This document shows, piece after piece, positions 1 through 5,269 of a stretch of 5,269 bases of DNA. The notes under the pieces are model-generated. The model saw only the letters and a program-made list of their open reading frames with translations. It searched no databases and was not told the origin of the DNA. The DNA is taken from positions 1 to 5,269 of the forward strand of contig DRBY01000017.1 in NCBI GenBank assembly GCA_011042755.1, written 5' to 3'. Position numbers and translations under genes: made by a program. How positions within the stretch are numbered: the stretch's first letter is position 1; every line of letters begins with the position of its first letter. The DNA comes from Thermoproteota archaeon (lineage in GTDB: Archaea > Thermoproteota > Korarchaeia > Korarchaeales > Korarchaeaceae).

Positions 1-286
1 AGCCGCCTCCCACGAGTTCCACCCGCGATTTGGCCCTGACTGCGAGTTCTGACAGCTTGACCCCGAGTTTCTCAGCGAACCACAGGGCCGTAGTCAGTAT
101 ACAGCCGCTGACGCTTGCAATGAAGAACTCGTCTGGTGACGGAGCCTCTCCAGCTCCCCCAAACTCCTCGGACATGTCAACATCATACTCGACTCCACTC
201 TGCAGCTTCACTCGGCCCCCGGTTCTTCCATTCCAAGAGCAGTAAGCTTCGTACTCAAGCGGCCCTTCAGGTCTTCTGACAGGCAT
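1..286 (-). CDS. OsmC/Ohr-family protein, N-terminal part (runs off left edge)
   Basis: The minus strand from ATG 286 to the window edge is open for 95 codons and is cut off by the edge. OsmC/Ohr proteins are thiol-dependent peroxidases, or proteins of unknown role with the same fold, that protect cytoplasm from organic peroxides. The family signature is clear at residues 43-66: GGAGEAPSPDEFF followed by IASVSGCILTT. Cys62 sits at the position of the first conserved cysteine of the family; the second would lie in the missing C-terminal half, so peroxidase activity cannot be judged. An extra cysteine is present at residue 16. The frame stays open upstream of ATG 286, but that ATG gives a normal N-terminus and has a TATA-like box about 27 nt before it, fitting a leaderless mRNA. 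It is divergent from the PTS genes. I am sure of the family, not of the substrate. Confidence 0.88.
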   Translation of the reverse strand, partial: MPVRRPEGPLEYEAYCSWNGRTGGRVKLQSGVEYDVDMSEEFGGAGEAPSPDEFFIASVSGCILTTALWFAEKLGVKLSELAVRAKSRVELVGGG

Positions 287-310
287 GGCGTGCCTAGATA
301 TGAACGGAAA

Positions 311-316
311 CTTAAA
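311..316 (-). promoter_or_regulatory. TATA-like box of the OsmC-family gene
   Basis: On the minus strand this reads TTTAAG, centred about 27 nt before the ATG at 286. In archaea that distance places transcription start at or next to the start codon, so a leaderless transcript is likely; no Shine-Dalgarno core is visible before the ATG. The box overlaps the TATA-like element proposed for the plus-strand IIA gene. Inference from spacing and composition only. Confidence 0.4.
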
Positions 317-321
317 GAATA
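312..321 (+). promoter_or_regulatory. TATA-like box of the PTS IIA gene
   Basis: The plus strand reads TTAAAGAATA, preceded by a purine/A-rich GGAAAC that could act as the BRE (TFB-binding element). It lies about 30 nt before ATG 347, predicting a leader of only a few bases. No GGTGA-type ribosome site is present before ATG 347, which agrees with near-leaderless initiation. Inference only. Confidence 0.4.
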
Positions 322-346
322 TGCGCACCCTTCCGCTTAATCTGAG

Positions 347-808
347 ATGAAGGAAATGGACATACTAGTTATCCTAGATCTCAATGCTGAGTCCGCTGAG
401 GACGTGATTACTTCCTTAGGAAGTCTTCTAGAGCGTAATGGCTTTGTAAAGCCGACATTCATACCTGCGACGCTCGAGAGGGAGAAGAACGTCCCCACCG
501 GATTAGAGCTTCAGGGCGGGATAAACGCAGCTCTGCCTCACGCTGGAGTAGAACACGTCAACAGGCCAGCCCTTGCTGTCGCCCGCCTCAGGAAGGAAGT
601 TCTCTTTCGAAGGATGGACGACCCTGAGGCAAGTGTCCCGGTTAAGCTTGTCTTCATGCCAGCAATAAAGGACCCTCACTCCTACATAACTACGTTAATG
701 AAGCTAGTCGATGTCTTCAAGGATCCTGAGACTGTAAAGAAACTAGTTGAGGCAAGGAACGAAGAAGAGGTTGTAGAAATTCTCAGGGAGAAGCTAGCCT
801 CAGCGTGA
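347..808 (+). CDS. PTS EIIA component, fructose/galactitol type
   Basis: A 153-residue cytoplasmic phosphocarrier of the PTS EIIA-2 (fructose/mannitol/galactitol) family. It would take phosphate from HPr onto a histidine and pass it to the IIB cysteine. The active-site motif is visible as GINAALPHAGVEHV: His65 is the expected phosphorylated residue in the LPH motif, and His70 is the nearby second histidine. Before it, REKNVPTGLE (residues 45-54) matches the family's conserved approach to the active site, and a helical C-terminus (residues 130-153) closes the domain. Length is normal for a stand-alone IIA. ATG 347 is chosen because a TATA-like box lies about 30 nt upstream; ATG 356 (M4) is an alternative and changes nothing in the domain. 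IIB and IIC follow on the same strand. Hand-counted GC over positions 361-420 is about 45%, lower than in the IIC gene. The family is firm; a galactitol-like substrate is inferred from IIB and IIC. Confidence 0.9.
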   Translation: MKEMDILVILDLNAESAEDVITSLGSLLERNGFVKPTFIPATLEREKNVPTGLELQGGINAALPHAGVEHVNRPALAVARLRKEVLFRRMDDPEASVPVKLVFMPAIKDPHSYITTLMKLVDVFKDPETVKKLVEARNEEEVVEILREKLASA

Positions 809-821
809 CGCAAGGCCACGC

Positions 822-845
822 ACGTTAGAAACGTTATTAAATATG
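822..845 (+). promoter_or_regulatory. Possible IIB promoter: ACGTTA direct repeat and TATA-like box
   Basis: The IIA-IIB gap contains ACGTTA at 822-827 and again at 831-836, then the AT-rich run TTATTAAATA at 835-844. The AT-rich run has the look of an archaeal TATA box, and transcription would start near 866, just before a GGTGA ribosome site at 870-874. The tandem hexamers (start-to-start 9 bp) touch the box and could be an operator half-site pair. All of this is inference from sequence pattern. Confidence 0.35.
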
Positions 846-869
846 CTGTACCACAGTGATGAATCCCGG

Positions 870-874
870 GGTGA
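870..874 (+). promoter_or_regulatory. Shine-Dalgarno site that selects GTG 882 as IIB start
   Basis: GGTGA lies 7 nt before GTG 882. It complements the TCACC at the archaeal 16S rRNA 3' end and is the same core used 6 nt before the IIC ATG. It argues for GTG 882 over the upstream in-frame ATG 843, which overlaps the end of the TATA-like run and has no such site. Confidence 0.6.
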
Positions 875-881
875 CCTTATA

Positions 882-1205
882 GTGTCCTCTGCGCCGCGGG
901 AGGTCAAGATTCTCGTCGCTTGTGGAACGGCTATAGCAACGGCCACGGTTGTGGCTGGTAAGATCAAAGAGGCGTTCGACAAGCTGAAGATACCTGTTAA
1001 GATCGTACAGTGTAAGGCTGCTGAGGTCACAGGCAAGATTGAGGTCTTTGAGCCCGATGTAATAGTAGCCAATACGCCAATATCCGAGAAGGCTGCAAAA
1101 GGAATTCCAGTAATCAACGGCGTCCCCTTCTTAACTGGGATGGGAGAGAAAGAGGCTCTTAAGAAGATATTCGAGGCCGTGGGCATAGAGGTCAAGGACT
1201 TATGA
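882..1205 (+). CDS. PTS EIIB component, galactitol (GatB-like) type
   Basis: A small cytoplasmic phosphocarrier that accepts phosphate from IIA on a cysteine and transfers it to the sugar or polyol held by IIC. The GatB-type phosphocysteine loop is obvious: KILVACGTAIATATVVAGKI, with Cys14 (counting from GTG 882) at the end of the first beta strand. It continues with the alternating strand and helix pattern of a Rossmann-like IIB fold: VKIVQCKAAEV, PDVIVANTPI, IPVINGVPFLTG. I chose GTG 882 (107 aa), because GGTGA precedes it by 7 nt and the domain begins a few residues later; GatB proteins are about 95 aa. The in-frame ATG 843 would add 13 unconserved residues (120 aa) and lies in the likely promoter. 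The gene sits between IIA and IIC, with gaps of 73 bp and 203 bp instead of the tight spacing typical of bacterial gat operons. The family call is firm, the start fairly so. Confidence 0.9.
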   Translation: MSSAPREVKILVACGTAIATATVVAGKIKEAFDKLKIPVKIVQCKAAEVTGKIEVFEPDVIVANTPISEKAAKGIPVINGVPFLTGMGEKEALKKIFEAVGIEVKDL

Positions 1206-1375
1206 GCAGATTCCACAACTCTCCTTGCTTTTTGCTGGGCAAGGGTCTCGCTGCTGGCAAATCTTCTTTTGATAGTCTCTAGAGTAACGGATGTTTTGTG
1301 TATGGCCTCTGAGATTTCCTCTTGAGCGCGTTTCATGTGCGTAACTTTATTAGTAAGTGTCGACGTCACCACCAT
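1206..1375 (-). other. Possible minus-strand small gene or gene remnant in the IIB-IIC gap
   Basis: The minus strand is open from ATG 1375 all the way to a stop at 800-802, antisense through IIB. Only the first roughly 57 codons, which lie in the gap, look like protein. They contain MKRAQEEISEAI, then SVTLETIKRRF and LAQQKARRVVESA, rich in Ala, Glu, Lys and Arg and strongly helical. The run QEEISEAI...TLETIKRRF loosely resembles a helix-turn-helix, with a longer turn than usual. After 1206 the translation turns into the Ser/Thr/Pro/Leu-rich text typical of an antisense shadow. The piece could be the 5' part of a decayed gene that lost its 3' end where IIB begins, a real overlapping gene, or chance. 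An internal ATG at 1336 is an alternative start. I do not recognise a family. Confidence 0.22.
1346..1352 (+). promoter_or_regulatory. TATA-like box of the PTS IIC gene
   Basis: TTTATTA lies about 60 nt before the IIC ATG. Archaeal spacing would place transcription start near 1375, giving a leader of about 34 nt that contains the GGTGA ribosome site. This would let IIC be expressed separately from IIA and IIB. Inferred from composition and spacing. Confidence 0.33.
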
Positions 1376-1397
1376 CAGTCGTCGAAGGTAGACGGCT

Positions 1398-1402
1398 GGT
1401 GA
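1398..1402 (+). promoter_or_regulatory. Shine-Dalgarno site of the IIC gene
   Basis: GGTGA is 6 nt before ATG 1409, complementary to the archaeal 16S rRNA 3' end. It fixes ATG 1409 as the IIC start and shows which ribosome-site core this genome uses. Confidence 0.65.
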
Positions 1403-1408
1403 CGGATC

Positions 1409-2680
1409 ATGCCGGGTATAGTAGAAGCAGTTAAGTGGTTTCTAGGTCTCGGAGCGACCGTAGCGATCCCAATAATCCTCTTCATAGTGGGTCTGGCCTT
1501 CAAGATTCCACTAGGCAAGGCCTTCAGAGCGGCGCTGACCATCGCGTGCGGCTTCGTAGGCATCAACCTAGTGATAGGGCTGCTATGGGGCACCATGAGC
1601 GACGTAGCTCAGGCCATGGTTCAGCGGACCGGCATTGAGCTTACAGTCATAGATGTCGGCTGGCCTTCTGCCGCTGCTATCGCGTGGGGCACTATCGTAG
1701 GAGCGCTCACGATCCCCATTGACTTCGTGATCAACATCATCATGCTTGCTCTAGGGCTGACCAAGACCATGGACATAGACTTCTGGAACTACTGGCACTT
1801 CGCTTTCACCGGGTCCCTAGTCACCATGGCGACTGATAGCGTACCGCTCGGTCTGATCGCCTCTGCTATTAACGCAATTATCGTGTTCAAGCTGGGCGAC
1901 TGGACTGCGCAGGGAGTCCAAGAGATGCTCGGAATACCGGGCATATCGCTGCCGCACGGGTTCTCTGCTGCTTATGTCCCGATAGGCATACCCATCAAGT
2001 GGCTAATCGACAAGATACCACCGATCAGAGACGTCAAGGCCGACCCTGAGGCCATCAGGGAGAGGCTGGGCATCCTAGGCGAGCCCATGGTCATAGGCTT
2101 CATAATAGGCATCCTGCTGGCTATTGCCGCCGGGAAGGACATAGCTGGCATCCTGAACACTGGCGTCACTCTGGCGGGCGTCATGTACCTGATGCCAAAG
2201 GTCGTGGCCATCCTGATGGAGGGTCTAGTGCCCATCTCTGAGGCTGGCAAGAAGATACTCGAGGAGAAGTACGGCGGCAGGGAGATGTACATAGGACTGG
2301 ATTCTGCTATCGCAATCGGTCACCCCACCGCGATCGCGGCCGCGCTGATATTGGTGCCGATCACAATCGCACTGGCGTTCATCCTGCCAGGAAACAAGTT
2401 CCTGCCTCTGGCCGACTTGGCGGTCCTGCCCTTCATGGTCTGCATGCTAGTACCAATCGTCAGGGGTAACGTGATCCACACCGTGATAATCGGCACGATA
2501 GTGCTGATTCCTGCGATGTACATAGGCACCTTCCTAGCGCCTTACGTGACTCAGGCCGCCCTCGCGGCCGGATTCGAGGCCCCAGAGGGCGCTACACTGA
2601 TATCCAGCATCTGCGACGGAACCAACCCGCTGACCTTCGCGATCTTCCTGCCGTTCTACCTGCTCTTCGGAAAGAAGTAG
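1409..2680 (+). CDS. PTS EIIC component, galactitol (GatC-like) permease
   Basis: A 423-residue integral membrane permease that binds the substrate outside and hands it to IIB for phosphorylation on entry. Nearly the whole chain is hydrophobic helices. Hallmarks that match GatC as I remember it from E. coli are VDVGWP-like IDVGWP (81-86), MDIDFWNYWH then FTGSL (121-137), KLGDW (161-165), LPHGFSA (181-187), GEPMVIGFIIG with the IIC GEP signature (224-234), GLDSAIAIGHP (296-306) and LPGNKFLPLADLA (326-338). Length is close to the 451 residues of E. coli GatC and the end is a short Lys tail, so the gene appears intact. The start has a GGTGA site at 6 nt. It forms Enzyme II with IIA and IIB just upstream. 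Substrate is likely galactitol or another polyol or pentose-type sugar; related GatC-like permeases exist for other substrates, so this is inference. Confidence 0.93.
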   Translation: MPGIVEAVKWFLGLGATVAIPIILFIVGLAFKIPLGKAFRAALTIACGFVGINLVIGLLWGTMSDVAQAMVQRTGIELTVIDVGWPSAAAIAWGTIVGALTIPIDFVINIIMLALGLTKTMDIDFWNYWHFAFTGSLVTMATDSVPLGLIASAINAIIVFKLGDWTAQGVQEMLGIPGISLPHGFSAAYVPIGIPIKWLIDKIPPIRDVKADPEAIRERLGILGEPMVIGFIIGILLAIAAGKDIAGILNTGVTLAGVMYLMPKVVAILMEGLVPISEAGKKILEEKYGGREMYIGLDSAIAIGHPTAIAAALILVPITIALAFILPGNKFLPLADLAVLPFMVCMLVPIVRGNVIHTVIIGTIVLIPAMYIGTFLAPYVTQAALAAGFEAPEGATLISSICDGTNPLTFAIFLPFYLLFGKK

Positions 2681-2753: not shown

Positions 2754-3221
2754 ATGGATTTGAGCGTTTTAAGGGCCTACAGGAAGGAACTCACGATCTC
2801 CCTCGTAGTTCTAGCGCTCGCTGGAATGTGGCTCCACTCGGCCTTCACCGTTCACTCCAATCTTGAACTCGTCTCGGTCTACGTCTATGAGAGCGGTGGG
2901 TTCAAGGGCATAGCTATGAACTTCTCACTCGAGAATGACGGCCTCTACCCGCTATTCGTGACGGCGAGCATGACACTAGAAGATGCCAGAACGGGTCAGA
3001 GTCTCGAGAACTTCTCAGCTTCCTTAGGTCTCGTTAAGGGGAGAAGCAGCTCCTCCAGAGTGTTGCTTCTTCCCATGAAAAACCTGAGCGCTCTCCCTCC
3101 GGAGATTAGGCTCAGAATGGTTGGATACTACGAGGCAAAGCTCTTCTGGCTGCCTGGCATTAGAGTACCGCTCAAGAAGGAGTTCACGGCTAAGATCGAG
3201 AGACTGGAAGGAAAACAGTAG
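2754..3221 (+). CDS. Single-pass membrane protein with outward beta-rich domain, unknown function
   Basis: 155 residues, family not recognised. The N-terminus is short and basic (RAYRK, residues 7-11), followed by one hydrophobic helix (about 13-33), so it should be an uncleaved anchor or signal with the rest outside. The outer part (37-151) looks like beta strands in an immunoglobulin or LEA14-like sandwich: LELVSVYVYE, GIAMNFSLENDGLYPLFVTASMTL, then a polar SSSS turn and RVLLLPM. Phrases such as 'FSLENDGLYPLFV' recall domains in archaeal surface proteins where a strand precedes an 'N-D/P-G' turn. Three N-glycosylation sequons lie at N56, N86 and N110, all outside. GGGGT 5 nt before ATG 2754 is a weak ribosome site. 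It follows the IIC terminator and converges on E2. A role with the PTS is not supported beyond adjacency. Confidence 0.72.
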   Translation: MDLSVLRAYRKELTISLVVLALAGMWLHSAFTVHSNLELVSVYVYESGGFKGIAMNFSLENDGLYPLFVTASMTLEDARTGQSLENFSASLGLVKGRSSSSRVLLLPMKNLSALPPEIRLRMVGYYEAKLFWLPGIRVPLKKEFTAKIERLEGKQ

Positions 3222-3248: not shown

Positions 3249-3278
3249 TCTGAGCTGGCGTTGGAAAGCCAGCTCAGA
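3249..3278. terminator. 11-bp perfect stem hairpin at the convergent junction
   Basis: TCTGAGCTGGC (3249-3259) and GCCAGCTCAGA (3268-3278) are exact inverse complements around an 8-nt loop. The hairpin covers the last codon and TGA stop of E2 (3274-3276). Read in the E2 direction it is followed by a pyrimidine-rich stretch (3248 down to about 3227), which looks like a terminator or mRNA 3'-end stabiliser. In the other direction it is not followed by a T-run, so it may stop or protect mainly the E2 transcript. The structure is seen; the role is inferred. Confidence 0.55.
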
Positions 3279-4389
3279 CAAGGTTCTCGGGGGTCTGCAA
3301 GAGTTCGACTACTCGCCTCAAGAACCTGGCCGCGGGTACTCCATCTACGACCCTGTGATCGAAGACTAGGCACAGGTGTACCATGGGTCTAAATTCCACC
3401 GATCCGGACTCTCCGAGGACTGGCATGTTCTGAATAGTCCCTACGCCCAGAATGGCCGCCTGAGGTGGATTTATTATCGGCGTGAAGATCTCGACTCCCT
3501 CAGCCCCGAGATTGGACACCGTAAAGGTCCCACCCATCACGTCCTCTGGGGAGAGCCCTGCGGTTCTGGCCTTCTCAGCCAGCTTCTCGATCTCTTTTGA
3601 GATCTCCAATACGCTCTTTTCGTTGGCCCTCCTGATCACGGGAGCAACGAGCCCGTCGGGTATGCTCACAGCGACGCCGATGTTAATGTCCTCGTAAACC
3701 AATATCCTGTCGTCTCTGACGGCCGAGTTCAGCATCCTGTGCTCTTCCAGCGCTTTGGCAACTGCCTTCACAATAAGCGCTGTGATGGAGAACCTCCTAT
3801 CCTCTTCAGCCATCTTCCTCCTGAGGTCCAAAGCCCTCGACATGTCGGCCTTCATGACTATCGTAACGCTCGGGATCTCCCTGTGGCTCTCTGAGAGCCT
3901 CCTGGCGATAGTGCCCCTGACCCCCGTCAGCTCAATCTCCTGCAGTATCTTAGGCCCCTCTTCGACCACAGCTCCTCTCTCCTCAAGGTACCGGAGCACG
4001 TCTTCTCTGGTTATTCTCCCACCTGGTCCAGTGCCCCTTACTTTGGATAGGTCGACGCCATACTGTTCGGCCAGCCTCCTAGCGGCTGGGCTCGCTCTGA
4101 TCCTCTCCTCGGCGACTCTAGGAACGACCTTCGGGGGCGCGACTTCTTCACCGGGCTCGGCAACGATTGCTAGCGGGGTCAGGACGGGAACCTCCTGCCC
4201 CTCCTCTACCAGTATCTGGGCCAGTATTCCGTCTGCTGGCGACTCGATTGGAAATGTGGTCTTCTCCCCCTCCGCAATTGCTATCTCCTCGCCCTTTTTG
4301 ACCTGGTCCCCAACCTTCTTGAGCCACTTGACTAGCTTCCCGCTCTTCATACCAGGATCAATCCTGGGCATCAGCACCTCTTTTGGCAA
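3274..4389 (-). CDS. 2-oxoacid dehydrogenase complex E2, dihydrolipoamide acyltransferase
   Basis: The 371-residue core subunit moves the acyl group from E1 to coenzyme A through a swinging lipoyl arm. A single N-terminal lipoyl domain (1-78) holds the lipoylation lysine at K43 in EGEKTTF, where ETDKA is more common. A peripheral subunit-binding domain follows (97-137: RASPAARRLAEQYGVDL, then GTGPGGRITREDV). The catalytic acyltransferase domain (150-371) has SNLG at 292-295 and the active-site HRVVDG motif with His345 and Asp349. Linkers are short, so the protein is compact for the family. The start is TTG 4389: a GAGGGGGAT ribosome site lies just before it, and it yields the expected start MPKEVLMP of a lipoyl domain. 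It begins 12 nt after the E1-beta stop, so the two are surely co-transcribed. No E3 gene follows before the convergent junction. The substrate could be pyruvate, a branched-chain 2-oxoacid or acetoin. Confidence 0.95.
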   Translation of the reverse strand: MPKEVLMPRIDPGMKSGKLVKWLKKVGDQVKKGEEIAIAEGEKTTFPIESPADGILAQILVEEGQEVPVLTPLAIVAEPGEEVAPPKVVPRVAEERIRASPAARRLAEQYGVDLSKVRGTGPGGRITREDVLRYLEERGAVVEEGPKILQEIELTGVRGTIARRLSESHREIPSVTIVMKADMSRALDLRRKMAEEDRRFSITALIVKAVAKALEEHRMLNSAVRDDRILVYEDINIGVAVSIPDGLVAPVIRRANEKSVLEISKEIEKLAEKARTAGLSPEDVMGGTFTVSNLGAEGVEIFTPIINPPQAAILGVGTIQNMPVLGESGSVEFRPMVHLCLVFDHRVVDGVPAARFLRRVVELLQTPENLV

Positions 4390-4393
4390 GAAC

Positions 4394-4402
4394 TATCCCC
4401 CT
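4394..4402 (-). promoter_or_regulatory. Shine-Dalgarno site supporting the TTG start of E2
   Basis: On the minus strand this reads AGGGGGATA-like sequence next to the E1-beta stop, 4-9 nt before TTG 4389. It is the reason to prefer the TTG over the later in-frame GTG and ATG, which would cut into the first strand of the lipoyl domain. Confidence 0.5.
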
Positions 4403-5269
4403 CACACGATCTTCTCCACCGCCTCAACGATGTCCTTGGCCCACCTCATATACTTCTGCTCTAGGGGCGGGGAGAAGGGGATCGGCATATCCGGCGAGGC
4501 GGTCCTGATTATGGGGGCGTCTAGGTAGTCGAAGGCGCCCTCTATTATGGTGGCGGCCAGCTCGGCTGTGACGCCCGCGGTCTTGCAGTCGTCCGCTGCC
4601 ACTACGGCTCTGCCGGTCTTCTTAACGGAATTAACTATAGTCTCTCTGTCGAGCGGATTCAGGGTCCTCGGGTCTATGACCTCGGCGCTGATCCCCTTCT
4701 TCTCCAACTCCTCGGCGGCCTTCAGGGCTTCATGCACCATTCTAGAGACTGCAACGATCGTTACGTCGCTTCCTTCCCTCTTCACGTCAGCGACGCCTAT
4801 CGGAACCTCGTAGGGCTCTTCAGGCACGTGACCCTTCACGCTGTAGTAGAGCAGAGCCGACTCTATGAAGAGAACCGGGTTGTCGTCTCTGATCGAGCTT
4901 ATTATGAGCCCCTTCGCGTCGTAGGGGGTCGACGGAAGGACCACCTTCAGGCCAGGGGTGTTCATGTACCAAGCCGGGAAGAAGTTTGAGTGCTGAGACG
5001 CGTGGGCCCTACCCAAGCTGTACTGAGTCCTGACCACCATCGGAACCTTGAGCTTTCCACCCGACGTGAACCTCATCTTGGCGGCCTGGATGACGAGCTG
5101 CTCCGTCGCTATGGGGAGGAAGTCCATGTACATTATCTCGGCGACTGGCCTAAGGCCCATCAGCGCGGCTCCTATGGCCGCGCCCACGATGGCTATCTCA
5201 GAGATTGGAGTGTCCCGAACTCTCTCAGGGCCGAACTCTTCTAGGAGCCCCTTGGTCACCTTGAACGCC
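4402..5269 (-). CDS. 2-oxoacid dehydrogenase E1 component, beta subunit (N-terminus off right edge)
   Basis: E1 is the thiamine-diphosphate heterotetramer that decarboxylates the 2-oxoacid and reductively acylates the lipoyl group of E2. The visible part has about 289 residues and matches E1-beta from the segment AFKVTKGLLEEFG onward. Landmarks are the ISEIAIVGAAIGAAL block with GLRPVAEIMYMDFLP, the RTQYSLGRAHASQHSNFF loop, PGLKVVLPSTPYDAKGL, and a C-terminal transketolase domain with VIDPRTLNPLD and a final helix. A GTG at 5259 could be mistaken for the start, but the upstream codons AFK still match the family, so the true start is beyond the edge and about 35-40 residues are missing. E2 follows by 12 nt. 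E1-alpha probably lies just upstream, outside the window. Hand-counted GC over positions 4441-4500 is about 62%, higher than in IIA. The segment before SQHS is longer than in many pyruvate E1-beta chains, so the substrate is open. Confidence 0.94.
   Translation of the reverse strand, partial: AFKVTKGLLEEFGPERVRDTPISEIAIVGAAIGAALMGLRPVAEIMYMDFLPIATEQLVIQAAKMRFTSGGKLKVPMVVRTQYSLGRAHASQHSNFFPAWYMNTPGLKVVLPSTPYDAKGLIISSIRDDNPVLFIESALLYYSVKGHVPEEPYEVPIGVADVKREGSDVTIVAVSRMVHEALKAAEELEKKGISAEVIDPRTLNPLDRETIVNSVKKTGRAVVAADDCKTAGVTAELAATIIEGAFDYLDAPIIRTASPDMPIPFSPPLEQKYMRWAKDIVEAVEKIV

Follow-up and report, generated by a model that had tools for sequence, protein, structure and literature searches.

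A Gat-type phosphotransferase system of Korarchaeia encoded beside a ThDP/lipoyl E1-E2 complex

The galactitol (Gat) phosphotransferase system (PTS), GatABC (TIGR00827, PRK09665, PRK10310; PDB 9u82), is built from separate IIA, IIB, and IIC proteins. A 5,269-nucleotide stretch of a Thermoproteota archaeon contig (DRBY01000017.1), here called the window, encodes an Enzyme II (EII) with the same division into three proteins, the same families, and the same active residues. The window differs from GatABC in scoring below the galactitol cut-offs, in containing no galactitol- or tagatose-phosphate enzyme, and in the linkage of its EII to a thiamine diphosphate (ThDP)- and lipoyl-dependent E1-E2 complex and, at the orthologous locus L002, to a ribulose-phosphate epimerase. 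We read the window as the left-hand portion of a single carbohydrate locus of Korarchaeia. The PTS by itself is of a known kind; the novelty lies in its recurring tie to the E1-E2 complex.

Complete PTSs with EI and HPr are described for haloarchaea in the accessible portions of PMC2405797 and PMC2841640, on plasmid pNG700 of Haloarcula marismortui and in operons of Haloferax volcanii, and the korarchaeal system is likewise complete. The Haloarcula PTS belongs to the fructose class, and those portions mention no link to E1-E2. A control search returned Haloferax volcanii matches for EIIC-GAT, EI, and HPr, and EI proteins named Bathyarchaeota and Odinarchaeota are already in databases. An earlier note on this DNA was right that haloarchaeal PTSs are known, but the PTS is less rare in archaea than it stated. 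Its remark that the Thermofilum pendens genome report described the first PTS of a crenarchaeote finds no mention in the accessible portion of PMC9973855.

Acetoin dehydrogenase (acoABC), which cleaves the carbon–carbon bond beside a methyl ketone, resembles the E1-E2 complex considered here in its heteromeric E1 and lipoyl E2, and the AcoC architecture, with an alpha/beta-hydrolase domain, is found in 4 of 10 E2s read from bacterial relatives. The window differs in having an E2 of the acyltransferase type, and the genes around its complex are for PTS and epimerase, where control loci have genes that read as acoR- and acoX-like. DXR-II, also called DRL (PF21135; PDB 3upl, 3upy), is a neighbour of bacterial E1-E2 genes and was not found at the korarchaeal locus.

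Seven genes lie in the window, three of which encode the EII.

347 to 808, plus strand: PTS IIA of the Gat/fructose type (PTS_EIIA_2), 153 residues (PF00359, E 2.5e-32); codon of the active His65 at 539-541
882 to 1205, plus strand: PTS IIB of the Gat type (PF02302, E 3.4e-11; PRK10310, E 1.4e-16, below cut-off); codon of the active Cys14 at 921-923
1409 to 2680, plus strand: PTS IIC of the EIIC-GAT family, 423 residues, with the GEP motif (PF03611, E 4.4e-86)

The Pfam matches of all three proteins are above cut-off and bear out the claim, made in the earlier note, of a complete EII with separate IIA, IIB, and IIC in an archaeon. Alignments also confirm the key residues that it listed. His65 of IIA, in the LPH/IPH motif (P64-H65), is invariant in 9/9 aligned proteins, including six that come from archaeal loci or the window; Cys14 of IIB is kept in seven of eight (L022 is the exception); and the GEP motif of IIC aligns with that of 9u82, the sole solved relative (E 1.6e-95). 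The GTG start of IIB at 882 fits the Cys14 numbering, and a longer alternative frame begins with an ATG at 843. IIA, IIB, and IIC of a PTS are thus all present with a phosphorylatable histidine and cysteine.

The substrate is less easily assigned. Gat type, part of the earlier label, is right, and the best NCBIfam matches of IIA, IIB, and IIC are galactitol models. All three, however, fall below the curated cut-offs, with 61.4 bits against 139 for IIA, 60.8 against 95 for IIB, and 465.6 against 542.2 for IIC (TIGR00827), so galactitol is unsupported as the substrate. None of the seven window genes encodes a galactitol-1-phosphate dehydrogenase or a tagatose-phosphate enzyme, and EI, HPr, and polyol enzymes are absent from all seven, as had been claimed. 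The 126-kb contig of genome G002, which carries L002, has no match to the aldolase and isomerase references; no dehydrogenase reference was searched.

A second Gat-type set occurs in genomes G028 and G029. The active cysteine of its IIB is replaced (by valine in the L022 alignment; L026 has the same motif), and the IIB gene, which lies between those of IIA and IIC, runs in the opposite direction. Its IIC has a long branch (1.19), and next to the set is a gene resembling ribulose-phosphate epimerase.

L022, 881-1228, minus strand: IIB without the active cysteine
L026, 5297-5647, plus strand: IIB without the active cysteine

The closest relatives point to the probable source of the phosphate. 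A genome scan with IIC returned 12 loci, led by L001 (genome G001, 95% identical) and L002 (94%), both of Thermoproteota archaeon metagenome-assembled genomes (MAGs), which we take to be from a study of 50 Korarchaeia MAGs. The gene order of L002 is OsmC, IIA, IIB, IIC, a hypothetical protein, E2, E1beta, E1alpha, ribulose-phosphate epimerase, HPr, and EI, ending with the following four genes.

L002, 5672-6700, minus strand: E1alpha
L002, 6761-7447, minus strand: ribulose-phosphate 3-epimerase (TIGR01163, 264.1 bits; cut-off 212.6)
L002, 7493-7768, plus strand: HPr (TIGR01003, 102.9 bits; cut-off 47.9)
L002, 7791-9521, plus strand: EI (TIGR01417, 622.5 bits; cut-off 341.7)

HPr and EI lie about 4.6 kb past IIC in L002, and the window ends about 2 kb before them. 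EI retains both its His loop (GGxTSHxAIxAR) and its Cys501 loop in 7/7 aligned rows. G001 has the same genes on two contigs, split between IIC and the hypothetical protein, with EI truncated by the contig end; EI and HPr occur in the same cell in both G001 and G002 and, by orthology, would do so for the window. The earlier note correctly placed EI and HPr outside the window, and a search of the genomes of the two nearest loci found both. It had treated the donor as open, a question now largely answered by the presence of HPr and EI at the corresponding locus of L002. Judged from sequence, phosphate most likely enters by the normal route from phosphoenolpyruvate (PEP) through EI and HPr, and the korarchaeal genes very probably make up a complete working PTS.

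Database records of an IIC (P0002), an E1beta (P0135), and an EI (P0248) agree on the length of the longest contig, 61,439 bases, as do those of another two pairs of E1beta and EI (17,637 and 66,363); we infer that these genes share contigs and that PTS and E1beta are linked there as well. Among the 29 genomes searched in the phylum of G002, Gat IIC is above cut-off in four and HPr is present in three, the same three that have an E1beta of at least 80% identity. The PTS is an accessory but complete system of a few Korarchaeia. On contig 9 of G004 (271705-272028), a weak EIIC-GAT match below cut-off contains two internal stop codons; this may be the decayed remnant of a copy in a further member of the phylum.

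The window also holds two genes of the E1-E2 complex.

3274 to 4389, minus strand: E2 acyltransferase (PF00364, PF02817, PF00198)
4402 to 5268, minus strand: ThDP-dependent E1 beta subunit, truncated at the window end (PF02779, PF02780)

The E2 comprises a lipoyl domain (EGEK, Lys43), an E3-binding domain, and a catalytic domain with HRVVDG. E1beta is 91% identical to its L002 counterpart, and with E1alpha taken from L002 the complex has both E1 subunits and an E2 with lipoyl lysine and catalytic histidine. The E2 carries PF00198 and not the alpha/beta-hydrolase domain of AcoC; NF011457 matches its N-terminal part only. The lipoate ligase family PF21948 is present in G001, G002, and G029 and was not found in G028.

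In the proposed mechanism, PEP would phosphorylate EI, EI would phosphorylate HPr, and HPr would phosphorylate His65 of IIA, which in turn would phosphorylate Cys14 of IIB, while IIC would import a sugar or polyol that is phosphorylated by IIB. E1alpha-E1beta-E2 and the ribulose-phosphate 3-epimerase would act on the imported product or a near derivative. The epimerase may yield the xylulo form of a compound of the pentulose-5-phosphate type, and E1-E2 may cleave the C2-C3 bond beside the keto group, so that the acyl group passes via lipoate to CoA and a triose phosphate is left. The phosphate cascade, the shared pathway, and its chemistry are predictions from genes and their neighbours. That the E1-E2 complex serves the PTS product is the account toward which we lean, by no great measure.

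Recurrence of this IIC subfamily near E1-E2 genes in Thermoanaerobacteria, Clostridioides, and rhizobia suggests an undescribed route of sugar breakdown. In a sample of 37 genomes of the class Thermoanaerobacteria, which hold the next-closest IICs after L001 and L002, a close IIC (57-61% identity) occurs in 11 genomes and a close E1beta (at least 83%) at seven places in six genomes. A PTS EII operon adjoins the close E1beta at 7/7 of these places: the Gat type in G032, G055:C1, and G056:C1 (gaps of 1.4, 2.6, and 3.1 kb), the glucitol type in G058 and G055:C13, and, in G033 and G066, the glucitol type with a Gat operon some 10 kb off. At 9/9 control E1beta loci (51-54% identical to that of L005), no frame of at least 100 residues matches the reference PTS, DXR-II, epimerase, or cupin, a comparison that other kinds of PTS than the references would escape; ten weaker E1beta matches of the 26 were not among the loci read. 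Several of the control loci, by reading, have acoX- and acoR-like genes, as in acetoin operons, and an acoX-like gene is also at the end of the PTS-linked L055 stretch. The nearest match to the korarchaeal gene set is L054, in which a regulator, IIA, IIB, IIC, and an opposite-strand regulator are followed by epimerase, cupin, E1alpha, E1beta, E2, a small 'bh' protein, and transketolase. The small protein ('bh protein' in Priestia) recurs in Firmicutes clusters of PTS with E1-E2 and of PTS with aldolase, and also in control L094.

L005, 14888-15235: small 'bh' protein
L003, 13588-13875: small 'bh' protein
L055, 993-1322: small 'bh' protein
L088, 5535-5864: small 'bh' protein

Several observations weigh against a shared pathway. 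Neither G001 nor G002 yielded an E3: they have no PF02852 match and just partial matches to an E3 protein, the completeness of these MAGs being unstated; G029 holds a full-length E3-type (Pyr_redox_dim) protein. Pyruvate dehydrogenase models are passed by the E1betas of the window (NF006667, 328.7 bits against a cut-off of 321) and L005 (NF006667), by the E1alphas of L005 and L006 (TIGR03182), and by the E2 of L092 (TIGR01349). The korarchaeal E1beta is 50-56% identical to the bacterial PTS-linked E1betas and forms a separate clade, and four control E1betas without a PTS are nearer to it (57-62%); it is not kin to the bacterial PTS-linked proteins, and so chance may have brought PTS and E1-E2 together on more than one occasion. 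Six of the 11 Thermoanaerobacteria genomes with a close IIC have no close E1beta, and in the four of these six that were read (L003, L004, L058, L060) the genes after IIC encode a class II aldolase and triose-phosphate isomerase instead. The isomerase of L003 (12187-12900) passes model PRK04302, which also fits that of L027, a korarchaeal locus (G028) in which the same IIA and IIB types occur with an AraD/FucA-family protein and triose-phosphate isomerase. Finally, the E1-E2 genes of G029 have no PTS beside them on an 8.7-kb contig.

L062, 2414-6150: E1alpha, E1beta, E2, and OsmC of G029 in one same-strand cluster, no PTS on the contig

A plainer reading is that a pentitol or pentulose PTS lies by chance beside an ordinary pyruvate or branched-chain 2-oxoacid dehydrogenase, the sole link between them being pyruvate released by the PTS. 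An E1beta above the NCBIfam cut-off for pyruvate dehydrogenase E1 beta and relatives that pass the E1alpha or E2 cut-offs agree with it, as do the nearest solved E1alpha chains, which are pyruvate dehydrogenase, 2-oxo acid, and branched-chain enzymes. A related IIC is also encoded at L059 in what reads as a pentitol-like operon, with two alcohol dehydrogenases, a split transketolase, and transaldolase-like and RpiB-like genes. Yet E1 proteins of different clades share this PTS neighbourhood, and none of the nine control E1 loci read showed it. That no E3 was detected in G001 and G002 also argues against it, and a pyruvate:ferredoxin oxidoreductase pair (named by eye from sequence) lies on the G002 contig of the locus, so pyruvate oxidation need not be the task of E1-E2. 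We consider this reading a genuine possibility that stops short of being probable.

OsmC/Ohr enzymes are able to accept electrons from lipoyl proteins. Full-length relatives of the window OsmC in L001, L002, and L027 (beside the PTS) and in L062 (beside E2) keep both cysteines, and OsmC might be a candidate stand-in where E3 was not found. A cupin gene related to that of L054 is beside OsmC in L001 and L027, and another is about 4 kb from EI in G002. The 155-residue protein encoded between IIC and E2 has no match in Pfam and NCBIfam searches; its orthologues are 60.5% and 64.4% identical, and its position is kept in L002 and L019.

2 to 328, minus strand: OsmC-family protein, truncated at the window start (PF02566, E 7e-07)
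2754 to 3221, plus strand: 155-residue protein of unknown function, with a single hydrophobic N-terminal segment (by eye)

Elsewhere in G001 and G002, split transketolase-like genes with an N-terminal extension lie beside a DAHP-synthase-like gene (L071, L070, L073; by eye).

Bacterial plasmids extend the comparison. Plasmid records with the best IIC matches also hold good E1beta matches, and the two genes are within about 8 kb in Clostridioides difficile, Rhizobium sp. SSA_523, and Allorhizobium pseudoryzae; the two rhizobial loci have IIC, IIA, IIB, and HPr-EI, with E1 and E2 2-3 kb on. DXR-II (PF21135 family) is directly before E1alpha in six of the nine plasmid loci read (L087, L089-L093), and the Priestia locus L088 has it 7 kb away from E1beta; it was not found in the stretches read of Rhizobium SSA_523 (L085) and C. 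difficile (L086). Transporters near the plasmid E1-E2 genes are Gat PTS (L085, L086, L087, L093), glucitol PTS (L088, L090, L092, L093), or ABC (L089, L091). DXR-II is also in four Thermoanaerobacteria loci with glucitol PTS and E1-E2 (G033, G066, G058, G055:C13). Of the best 25 of 947 records matching the L005 E1beta, 21 have DXR-II, 20 of them about 1 kb off, and the other four carry Gat IIC about 7 kb off; of the best 25 of 727 matching the archaeal E1beta, 21 are linked to DXR-II or Gat IIC, and the other four (two Thermus, Neorhizobium, Fuscovulum) have neither among the matches listed, many of the E1beta records being near copies of one another. Six of the ten E2s read are of the acyltransferase type, and three of the four with the alpha/beta-hydrolase pass the NCBIfam acetoin-dehydrogenase cut-off. 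The arrangement in which DXR-II adjoins E1alpha-E1beta-E2 and PTS or ABC transporters is seen at L087 (17217-22005), L089-L093, L055, L056, L057, and L061.

The Allorhizobium DXR-II scores 656 bits against PDB 3upl, presumably the Brucella DXR-II (the record states just Oxidoreductase). The substrate of DXR-II is 1-deoxyxylulose-5-phosphate (DXP). According to the accessible part of PMC3847144, the enzyme makes methylerythritol-4-phosphate in isoprenoid synthesis, and relatives may be without the activity. Five sites discussed in that paper (121, 229, 250, 320, 351) were compared across six rows, from Priestia, Allorhizobium, and four Thermoanaerobacteria, of which two are identical by BLAST. 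All six rows retain the first four sites, and only Allorhizobium (L087) retains Val351. The gene neighbourhood is pointing to a catabolic role in bacteria for this enzyme, described as biosynthetic.

In a more specific proposal, which we regard as unlikely though worth stating, the PTS gives DXP or an epimer and an acetoin-dehydrogenase-like E1-E2 splits DXP into acetyl-CoA and glyceraldehyde-3-phosphate. Because DXP, like acetoin, is an acyloin, its cleavage into glyceraldehyde-3-phosphate and an acetyl group would follow the same chemistry. In a bacterial branch, held just as tentatively, methylerythritol-4-phosphate made by the PTS would be returned to DXP by DXR-II. Gat PTS with epimerase might then serve for 1-deoxy-D-xylulose or its epimer and glucitol PTS with DXR-II for 2-C-methyl-D-erythritol, a doubtful assignment; taken together, these reactions would run the opening steps of isoprenoid synthesis in reverse, for catabolism, in two domains, which again we think improbable. 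The L002 epimerase and the AraD/FucA-family proteins of L027 and L086 could both be routes to the xylulo form. The proposal draws on DXR-II beside E1-E2 in the plasmid and four Thermoanaerobacteria loci, on the 21 records with DXR-II and four with Gat IIC among the best 25 of 947, on the Allorhizobium score and the four sites of five kept in every row, and on the acetoin-dehydrogenase architecture of 4/10 E2s. In addition, mutations of the E. coli pyruvate dehydrogenase E1 permit DXP production in vivo, by a reaction that the authors term unknown in the part of PMC3424233 available. Against it, neither the window nor the 126-kb contig of G002 yielded DXR-II (the remaining genome was not searched), and the korarchaeal E2 and 6/10 of the others are of the acyltransferase type. 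The E2 of the DXR-II-linked L092 passes the pyruvate-dehydrogenase E2 cut-off, and L085 and L086 have Gat PTS and E1-E2 without DXR-II. Moreover, DXR-II relatives may be inactive (PMC3847144, accessible part), Val351 being kept in L087 only, and free substrate in the habitat is unproven.

A regulatory or non-phosphorylating EII, the latter an alternative raised in the earlier note, or some other phosphate donor is very improbable: the second Gat-type locus of G028 and G029, with its cysteine-less IIB, lends the idea some substance, but the window keeps His65 and Cys14 and its orthologous locus holds HPr and EI.

Trees were made by a quick method with Shimodaira–Hasegawa-like approximate likelihood-ratio test (SH-aLRT) support alone, except the E1beta tree with control loci, and haloarchaeal and Thermofilum sequences are in none of them. 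The IIC tree has 88 rows, namely the loci (L009, L010, and L011 not included) and a subset of the best 120 of 3134 matches; its outgroups are L008 from Citrobacter and L012 from Vibrio. The 83 rows of the EI tree are a subset of the best 120 of 7996 matches. With L008 as outgroup, the window, L001, L002, P0001, and P0002 form one IIC clade (SH-aLRT 100, stem 0.35), which falls in a 13-row set (98) with P0003-P0006, P0008, P0009, and the long-branched L022 and L026; Chloroflexota are next to this set. In the EI tree, L002, a protein named Candidatus Korarchaeota archaeon (97% identical to the L002 EI), and G029 share one 15-row clade (support 100), and the EIs named Bathyarchaeota and Odinarchaeota fall elsewhere, on a weak backbone. 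The korarchaeal E1beta groups with Bathyarchaeia and Hecatella. In L002 the PTS genes are at one end of the 126-kb contig, on which reading frames show an archaeal-type S-adenosylmethionine synthetase, the pyruvate:ferredoxin oxidoreductase pair, and a type IA topoisomerase. The window is archaeal, and its nearest named relative assigns it to the Korarchaeia. From these sequences, the PTS and E1-E2 of the locus seem to have different histories, and no part looks like recent contamination. Transfer of the whole block from Thermoanaerobacteria was considered, as L054 and L005 hold much the same gene set, and is rejected for E1, since the korarchaeal E1beta groups with Bathyarchaeia. That the contig is a bacterial contaminant, the outcome that the earlier note named as fatal to its claim, is scarcely credible and can be dismissed: the named members of the IIC family, among the matches listed, are bacterial, but the same synteny is on the archaeal contig of L002, E1beta is in an archaeal clade, and the korarchaeal IICs form a well-supported clade of their own.

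The terms 'PTS' and 'phosphotransferase' do not occur in the main text of PMC10667645, on 50 Korarchaeia MAGs, by a term search, and, among the papers listed by searches of open-access literature, no title or abstract opening describes a catabolic pathway that joins PTS or DXR-II to E1-E2. In its accessible part, PMC3847144 asks how DXR-II arose in strains already with DXR, and a role in catabolism would be a concrete answer open to test. The catabolic reversal set out above, if true, would account for the retention of DXR-II by bacteria that have a normal DXR and for the lipoyl complex of a fermentative archaeal group. E2 and lipoylation have been proposed as a marker of aerobic life in archaea, both being absent from Korarchaeum cryptofilum (PMC3904984, in the part available). 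With E2 and lipoate ligase and no detectable E3 in a korarchaeal group, that marker needs care. This locus adds the Korarchaeia to the groups that have a complete PTS driven by PEP, here with an EI and HPr of its own, and ties that PTS to a ThDP- and lipoyl-dependent complex that cleaves carbon–carbon bonds, a tie that recurs in Firmicutes and Alphaproteobacteria, there beside DXR-II.

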